Part shown: in pieces, positions 14,937-17,153 of the stretch
How positions within the stretch are numbered: position 1 is the first letter of the stretch
How the letters are laid out: each line of letters opens with the position of its first letter
Origin: Candidatus Culexarchaeum nevadense
GTDB taxonomy: Archaea; Thermoproteota; Methanomethylicia; Culexarchaeales; Culexarchaeaceae
Length of the DNA: 34,431 nt
Assembly: GCA_025060975.1 (NCBI GenBank)
Contig: JANZKA010000001.1
Location: 172,283 to 206,713, forward strand
Reading direction: 5' to 3'
Notes under the pieces: model-generated
Databases searched by the model: none
Told to the model about the DNA's origin: nothing
Seen by the model: the letters and a program-made list of their open reading frames with translations, nothing else
Made by a program: the position numbers and the translations under genes

Positions 14937-17153
14937 ATGAGCAATGTTTATGAAGACAGTTTAAATAAAATATTTAAAGCCATTGGGAATAAAACACGCA
15001 TAAATATTTTGTTAAAATTATATTCTGTAAAAGAAAGTAGCTTTACAGATTTAATGCTAGACCTAAATTTATCTCCAAGAAAAGATTCAGGAAAATTTGC
15101 ACATCATTTAAACATACTGATTGAGGCTGGACTTGTGAAAGAAAATGAAGAGAAAAGGAAATACGAATTAACTGATTTTGGAGAAGAAATAGTGTTGTTG
15201 TTACAAAAAATAAAGGGAGATATTATAAAGAAAGAAGGCAGATACCTTGTGAGGACTTCCAACTTAACTATGGAACCATTTGAAAGAAGAAAAATAGTTG
15301 AAGCATTAATGCGCGAAGCTAAAGCTCCACGGATGATTGCAGAGGAAATAGCCAGAGAAGCTGAGGAAAGAATTTTGAAAAGTAACATAAAGTACCTAAC
15401 TGCCCCATTAATAAGGGAAATAGTAAACTCAATACTTTTGGAACGTAATTTGGAGGATTATAGACATGCCATGACAAGATTAGGTTTACCCGTATATGAT
15501 ATTGAAAGGATGATTAATGAGGAGAAGTTCACAATAAATTCACCCTTATTCACGTACTTGAAAGCAGGCACGTCAGTTATGAGTGAATATGCATTGATAA
15601 AAGAACTGCCAAGGAATATTTCAGACGCACACATATCAGGAGCAATAAATTTAAACAATCTACCATTTTGGGGGGTTATGCCAGAGACTATTCATCATGA
15701 CACTAATAAAATTATTAGCAGTGAATTAACATTCAGCAACTTACCCAATACATTTATCCCTAAAATTAGGAAAGCTAAAGATATAGATGAAGCCTTGGAA
15801 AACATCACTAAAATTACCCACCTAGCAGAAAACCATATTTCAGTTGGACAAGTTATTGATGACATTAATGTTATATTGTCACGTTTTATTAGTGAAATTA
15901 GTTATTATGATGTACTCACAAAAGTTAGAAGGATGATTATTAGTTTAAATCAAATACCTGGAATTCTAAAAATGCCTCGATCAGTAGCGATAGGTTTAAG
16001 GCTTGATAAAAGTTTAGAGAAAGACGGTTTTTTTGAAGAAAAGGTATTGTTATTTAAAGCATTTCTTGAAGTATTTATATGTGGAGATGAAGGGAAAAGG
16101 CCTTTTCTTACACCACTACCTATAATAAAAATGGATAAGTATGCTTTTGAGAATACAAACTTTGATGAAGAGATATCTAAAGTTTGTGAATTGCTCTATA
16201 AATGGTGTACACCAATTATTGTAAATATAGAATGGGAAAGTAATGTAGAATCTAGTTATTGTTGGGATTTATCGAGAATAGATAGTTTTCTAAAAGAGAA
16301 AAATAGCGCTGGTACATTAAATACCGTTCTAATAAATTTACCCAGAATAGCGCTTGAATCTAGAGGAGATGATCTATTATTTTTTTCAAAATTAGAAGAA
16401 AATATTAAATTAAGTATAGATGCCATGAATTATGGAAAAGAAAAAATAAAGGAAAGGGTAAGTAGAGGAGCGTTACCCTTTCTCTCCTTAGAAGTAGATG
16501 ATGAAAATTACTACTGTGTAGATTGTGGATATGGTAGAATTGGATTTATTGGATTATTTGAAGCTACAAAGATTCACACAAACAAGGATTTATATCAAGA
16601 AAAGGAAGCACTAACTTTTTCTAAAAAAATTATTGAAAAATCACTCGAATTTCTAAAAGATTATCCTAAAATAAAAATTACAGAAATAAGTAGTGAGGAC
16701 CCCAGTAGAAGATTATTTATTGCAGATGGTATTCGCTATGGCTTTAGAACTATTGAGGAGAGAATAGGTAAAAAAATTTCAAAATACTCATTAAATACCA
16801 TACTCCCATATGATATCTCAATACCATTGAATAGACGAATCGAAATAGAGGGAATGTTTCATAAGAAAATGTTAGGAGGTCACTGTTTAAACATACCTCT
16901 TATAGAGCCAATCCCACCGAAAGATGTATTTTATAGGTACATCAAAGAAATAATATGTAATAATAAAGTAGCTGCATTTACATTTTCATTTGATTTTACA
17001 TATTGTAGGAAGTGCGGGATACTAATGCATGGAAGACATGAAAGATGTGATTATTGTGGGCGCGCTCTAACCGTACTAGAATACTACTCAAAAAACCTAA
17101 ATACATACGTGGCAAGTAATGAAAAGAGGAATGTCAAAGGATATCTGTTATAA
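14937..17153 (+). CDS. ArsR-type winged HTH + ATP-cone + class III ribonucleotide reductase (NrdD)-like fusion protein
   Basis: N-term [29 protein letters not shown]...[12 protein letters not shown] (ArsR wHTH); [22 protein letters not shown]...[13 protein letters not shown] (ATP-cone); [16 protein letters not shown] and CRKCG...CDYC (NrdD-like C-terminal region). Confidence 0.75.

Follow-up and report, generated by a model that had tools for sequence, protein, structure and literature searches.

The window, the whole 34,431-nucleotide stretch of the Candidatus Culexarchaeum nevadense genome that was analysed, has as its nearest named relative a Candidatus Methanomethylicota MAG (81% identity). 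It contains a 738-aa ORF in which an ArsR-type winged helix and an ATP-cone are joined to a body resembling NrdD, the class III ribonucleotide reductase (RNR). The open reading frame and its Pfam matches bear out this fusion, which had been read from the sequence beforehand. The features of the locus are as follows.

14937..17153, + strand: gene for the winged helix, ATP-cone and putative pseudo-NrdD fusion, 738 aa (open ORF, Pfam; intact ORFs in relatives)
14958..15206, + strand: ArsR/SmtB-type winged helix-turn-helix, residues 8-90 (PF24038/PF14947/PF01022, AlphaFold, PDB fold matches)
15243..15476, + strand: ATP-cone, residues 103-180 (PF03477, E 7e-8; conservation across the phylum)
15543..17000, + strand: NrdD-like barrel body, catalytically degenerate, residues 203-688 (PF13597, 190 bits; below the TIGR02487 cut-off)
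15648..15698, + strand: degenerate HxHD and second-Cys segment, residues 238-254 (alignment with NrdDs)
16254..16277, + strand: degenerate finger-loop Cys segment SYCWDLSR, residues 440-447 (alignment with NrdDs)
17004..17057, + strand: zinc site CxxC...CxxC, still present, Cys690-Cys707 (unchanged in 26 members of the class)
17082..17111, + strand: site of the lost glycyl-radical loop, Asn722 opposite the radical Gly (alignment)
14899..14915, no strand assigned: inverted repeat AAGTGTAATATACTCTT in the gap upstream of the fused gene, a candidate autoregulatory site
14165..14890, + strand: HTH_3 regulator, upstream neighbour of the fused gene (46-bp gap; possible co-transcription, no functional link)

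The fused gene is flanked by this HTH_3 gene and, on its other side, by a convergent gene for an aspartate/ornithine carbamoyltransferase. Pfam places a winged helix (ArsR/DUF7347/HTH_45) at residues 11-93, the ATP-cone at 105-176 and NRDD at 207-712. The NRDD fold is recognized by profile (PF13597 cut-off, 26 bits), and the score against the NrdD equivalog TIGR02487, 170 bits, is below the 326-bit cut-off. In an AlphaFold model of the N-terminal 190 residues, the winged helix (residues 11-90) has a pLDDT of 82-94, and its top PDB folds are the ArsR/SmtB repressors CzrA, HlyU, CadC and SmtB (E 2e-3 to 7e-3, probability 1.00; TM on target up to ~0.77 for the best matches). The full-length model, made from a 3-sequence alignment, is poor (pLDDT 45), and its body is not usable. 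The fused protein thus has the winged-helix fold of CzrA, CadC and SmtB in residues 8-90. Unlike these metal sensors, it has, by inspection, no Cys in the helix at residues 36-42, the site of their Cys motif, and its winged helix is attached to an ATP-cone and an RNR body. The ATP-cone signature VXKRDG reads VRTSNL (VRTSSG in the NrdD of the same genome), so that the ligand of this ATP-cone is uncertain.

We aligned the motifs of 54 fused proteins from many Thermoproteota families with those of 18 NrdDs. Standard archaeal NrdDs in this alignment display HxHD, RPFC, QCC(A/R) and R(V/I)TGYY together with the zinc site. Equivalent motifs are seen in three bacterial-type NrdDs, of which L140 has no ATP-cone. 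The Cys motifs, zinc site and glycyl loop are present in 16 of the 18 NrdDs, and an NrdD encoded beside a fused gene (L125, family f33) is itself degenerate and has no Gly loop. None of the 54 fused proteins has the complete canonical motif set, and the HxHD, second-Cys and double-Cys motifs are absent from every one. In the 738-aa protein, as had been proposed, the HxHD and Cys segment is gone: HxHD is replaced by NLNN, and RPFC of the genome's own NrdD by MPET. The double-Cys segment SCYQCCAY becomes SSYCWDLS, leaving one finger-loop-segment Cys. The original prediction was right that the radical Gly has been replaced, but the residue it named, Thr723, came from plain spacing. Two residues are inserted after the zinc site, so that the radical Gly of the NrdD encoded elsewhere in the genome (SRVTGYYQ) pairs with Asn722 in SKNLNTYV, where no RVxGY motif is found. 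Zinc-site residues Cys 690, 693, 704 and 707 are invariant. The remnants differ by lineage: fused proteins of family f6 keep a Gly at the radical position (YGRY) and have lost the cysteines, those of the genus of the window keep one finger-loop-segment Cys and have lost the radical Gly, and most of those from ammonia oxidisers stop directly after the zinc site.

Thermotoga maritima NrdD is active with Ile rather than Cys at the finger-loop tip (PMC4493059); loss of Cys alone is therefore no proof of inactivity. Much stronger evidence is the combined loss of the glycyl radical motif and both Cys positions, and, judged from these alignments, the body of the fused protein seems to be a catalytically dead NrdD.

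The same genome (1.42 Mb in 129 contigs) encodes a second NRDD protein, on contig C11, which passes TIGR02487 with 530 bits; this is the separate canonical RNR that the original prediction had proposed to look for. A glutaredoxin-like (redoxin) gene lies upstream of this nrdD. The nrdG gene (family TIGR02495) is found beyond a contig break, where the end of C11 overlaps the start of C6; nrdD and nrdG are adjacent and convergent in G005, a sister genome. In this genus nrdG adjoins the true nrdD and not the fused gene. With a separate and intact set of redoxin, nrdD and nrdG, the genome is independent of the window protein for class III reduction. The absence of an NrdG gene from the window, correctly noted beforehand, is for the same reason uninformative.

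These findings bear on the view that the fused protein is a divergent, active class III RNR that draws its radical Gly from the C-terminal RNVKGYLL, a displaced loop of the kind also envisaged in the original prediction. Retention of the NRDD fold and zinc site, a Gly-Tyr pair near the C terminus and the tolerance of T. maritima NrdD to loss of its finger-loop-tip Cys would be compatible with such an enzyme. However, the KGYLL sequence (Gly735) is restricted to the genus, and G006, from the same family, reads EVYLS; we rejected a displaced radical loop because the C-terminal GYL is not conserved. The missing cysteines, the failure at a cut-off that the genome's own NrdD passes, the early C termini of most ammonia-oxidiser members, the placement of nrdG with the true nrdD and the persistence of the family in aerobic ammonia oxidisers, a group whose five searched genomes yielded no canonical NrdD, all argue against activity, which we regard as very improbable.

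The family is widespread. Its alignment finds matches in 342 of 398 Thermoproteota genomes, a count that includes true NrdDs, and matches that begin in the winged helix carry many family labels across Thermoproteota. By a tally of matches, the fused protein occurs in 27 of the 40 genomes of the class to which the window belongs, and in one family of ammonia oxidisers it occurs in 77 of 81 genomes (58 of the 59 good ones). This phylum-wide distribution rules out a horizontally acquired oddity of one genome. In a tree of the ATP-cone and body from 52 fused proteins and 18 true NrdDs, which is unrooted and has long branches, one branch separates the two groups (SH-aLRT 99.9). Within the genus, the fused gene has a dN/dS of 0.10-0.12; this purifying selection implies that the body is being maintained. 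Loss of catalytic residues would also be seen in a decaying pseudogene, and a fusion could be an artefact of a single assembly, but ORFs intact in dozens of genomes, the low dN/dS and the near-complete occurrence in good genomes make either explanation extremely remote, and decay to a pseudogene was discarded on the last two grounds.

Relative to its relatives, the window protein is 42-70% identical in the ATP-cone, the most conserved region across the phylum, and 18-32% identical in the body. Between two ammonia oxidisers, identity is 94% in the winged helix, 69% in the ATP-cone and 32% in the body. The bodies of true NrdDs are 56-68% identical. Selective constraint thus appears to have shifted from the enzyme body to the winged helix and ATP-cone. 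Such an inversion would be expected if DNA binding and nucleotide sensing are the present function.

The fused gene is frequently a neighbour of RNR genes. In genomes with archaeal amoA it lies directly upstream, on the same strand, of a PF02867-type (class I/II) RNR gene; in the ammonia-oxidiser family above, this pair is present at 30 of 30 fetched loci, with gaps of ~190-220 bp at all but two. A family profile search found no canonical NrdD in five ammonia oxidisers. The order in families f32 and f56 is fused gene, redoxin, nrdD, and in families f39, f41 and f33 and one f32 genome nrdD follows the fused gene directly. In the lineage and class of the window itself, the fused gene is not adjacent to any RNR gene. 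Linkage to different RNR classes points to control of RNR supply and not to a subunit of one enzyme.

An RNR fold and ATP-cone in common with the reductases, encoded beside their genes, would also suit a regulator acting at the protein level, in which the fused protein forms a hetero-oligomer with a true RNR to inhibit or tune it and the winged helix serves as a protein-interaction module. A fold-specific heterodimer leaves unexplained why the neighbouring reductases are of both PF02867 and NrdD types, and the PF02867-type RNR of the ammonia oxidiser examined already has its own ATP-cone. The winged helix is also the most conserved region within the ammonia oxidisers, and a conserved element occurs at nrdD promoters. 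We therefore consider regulation by direct contact with the enzyme unlikely relative to regulation through DNA.

The candidate element was found in family f6, where TATCNAWTTTTTTAAA-N6-ACTCNAAAAA lies upstream of nrdD, beside a TATA-like box; its half-site is ACTCTAAAA. In 40 whole genomes, matches with ≤2 mismatches are confined to f6 nrdD promoters, one per genome, and the nrdD promoter of G030 has a copy with 3 mismatches. A reversed control pattern gave no match at ≤2 mismatches in the same 40 genomes and one at up to 3. We scanned 557 kb of other loci with a matrix trained on the f6 sites alone. Ranks 1, 2 and 4 are redoxin-nrdD promoters of the genus of the window, and rank 3 is the f41 intergenic region between the fused gene and nrdD. 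The site in the source genome (L034, 5075-5116) is in reverse orientation; its score was reached by 0 of 2000 dinucleotide shuffles, and that of the G005 site by 2 of 2000. Families f32 and f39 have similar but weaker sites ahead of nrdD. Another match to the f6 matrix, at 729-770 of the window, is isolated in a gene-free stretch.

Co-occurrence of the element and the fused gene is incomplete. Genomes of family f9, which have NrdD and lack the fused gene, have no match to the element pattern. The element is present in five f6 genomes (G016, G017, G025, G027 and G028; 74-93% complete) in which the fused gene was not detected, and was not found in families f5, f7 and f8, which have the fused gene. 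A/T runs beside the TATA-like box mean that part of the element could be core promoter. The fused protein could act through this element, the link between the two being correlative. At the fused gene itself, the inverted repeat at 14899-14915 contains the ACTCT core of the nrdD element, and G003 has a perfect AAGAGT-N5-ACTCTT. A search for a motif common to the f6 fused-gene and nrdD promoters yielded T-runs in both, too weak to claim. The sequences upstream of ammonia-oxidiser fused genes differ from the nrdD element. In these promoters (L196-L225), GATCnAAA boxes recur and a GTCAYAARTCTTAWTTA core is conserved; both may serve as operators in that lineage.

Bacterial RNR genes are repressed by NrdR (TIGR00244), a Zn-ribbon joined to an ATP-cone. 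NrdR is rare in archaea (PMC12176259), and the equivalog scores above cut-off in 2 of our 40 genomes and is absent from the other 38. TIGR00244 is not among the families matched by the 738-aa protein at E≤1, and its N terminus is a winged helix rather than a Zn-ribbon. Like NrdR, the fused protein has a DNA-binding head and an ATP-cone, its gene is often beside RNR genes (in lineages other than that of the window), and it would, as proposed here, control RNR classes with an ATP/dATP signal. Unlike NrdR, it has an ArsR-type head, a seemingly dead RNR body of ~500 aa and a different candidate operator. With NrdD (TIGR02487/PF13597) it has in common the ATP-cone, barrel body, C-terminal CxxC...CxxC zinc site and ancestry; it differs in that the glycyl radical motif, the active-site Cys set and HxHD are missing, a winged helix is added at the N terminus and nrdG is not linked. 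The fused protein thus appears to be like NrdR in function and a member of neither NrdR nor NrdD. In G304, nrdR directly precedes a bacterial-type nrdD, and the fused gene lies upstream of an archaeal nrdD, an arrangement in which two putative regulators each accompany their own enzyme. The nrdR-nrdD pair (L144, on contig C20 of G304) looks imported.

Together, these data suggest, with a probability of about 80%, that the fused protein is a transcription factor that senses nucleotides and controls RNR genes, an analogue of NrdR built from a dead RNR. A pseudo-reductase serving as such a regulator was one of the two readings originally advanced. It now has strong support from sequence: the active site is lost across the phylum, the winged helix and ATP-cone are conserved, the gene adjoins RNR genes of different classes in several lineages, and an element recurs at nrdD promoters. 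Because the fused gene so often directly precedes a working reductase gene, the protein is very probably the missing archaeal switch for reductase amount. We infer DNA binding, nucleotide sensing, an operator role for the element and repression over activation, in the following scheme. The ArsR-like winged helix would bind DNA at RNR promoters, and in the class of the window the predicted site is the element of the ATTTTTTTAAA-N6-ACTCTAAAAA type in the promoter of nrdD. The ATP-cone would read the cellular ATP/dATP state and shift oligomeric state or DNA affinity, and the dead NrdD body would provide a dimerization and allosteric scaffold whose inherited specificity site possibly still reads other nucleotides. 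Plentiful dNTPs would most likely lead to repression of nrdD, and perhaps of the fused gene as well, the job that NrdR does in bacteria.

A DNA-binding regulator might instead be an activator, or its main signal might be the redox state or some other aspect of metabolism in place of (d)ATP. The sign of regulation is not readable from sequence, and the divergent ATP-cone signature and retained zinc site would fit such a sensor. Against a sensor of another kind, no other region is as constrained across the phylum as the ATP-cone. Repression is favoured by the position of the candidate sites, which overlap or adjoin TATA-like boxes; we judge these variants improbable, though less so than a hetero-oligomer. 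More tentatively, the transcription factor proposed here may represent a Thermoproteota family that arose a single time from a class III RNR and whose members still read the dNTP balance, beyond dATP/ATP alone, through the ATP-cone and specificity site of the dead body, setting transcription of whichever RNR class the cell uses; as a whole this broader scenario is possible rather than probable.

Metabolic enzyme folds have been reused in gene control in trigger enzymes and ROK-type repressors, as we propose for the fused protein. If the proposal is true, the family would exemplify clearly how an essential enzyme can yield the transcription factor of its own pathway, selective constraint having shifted from the active site to the DNA-binding head and the sensor. 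For the control of RNR genes in Thermoproteota, it offers a concrete candidate that is near-universal in the sampled ammonia-oxidising family, some species of which are culturable. Some archaeal matches to "anaerobic ribonucleoside-triphosphate reductase" would then not be reductases, which affects inferences of anaerobic metabolism. We found neither a prior description of the fused family nor any RNR-derived transcription factor in the literature searched; unpublished or subscription-only accounts of the family are possible. The words winged, helix-turn-helix and transcription are absent from two RNR family papers (PMC9669993, PMC9531940).

Several other features were observed in the window and related genomes. 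An 86-aa protein consisting of an ATP-cone only, with a classical VVKRNG-type signature, is encoded at L230:651-911 (G000:C8:7647-7856), and similar small ATP-cone matches occur in G003, G005, G007, G029 and G039. Positions 195-2257 of the window form an AT-rich stretch of ~2 kb that lacks ORFs of ≥60 aa and Rfam matches, adjoined by a short ORF on the - strand (2258-2443) that by eye is Sec61-beta-like. Genes at 18751-23266 resemble, by eye, an archaeal A-type ATPase cluster; two of its ORFs, 18751-19098 and 19088-19744, contain a near-identical ILEAEKEAEAIIENAKKRAEEIINKAEKDAEEIMNKEIKI segment, as if partly duplicated. At 32046-34422, two convergent genes that by eye are chaperonin-like (thermosome) meet at the end of the window.
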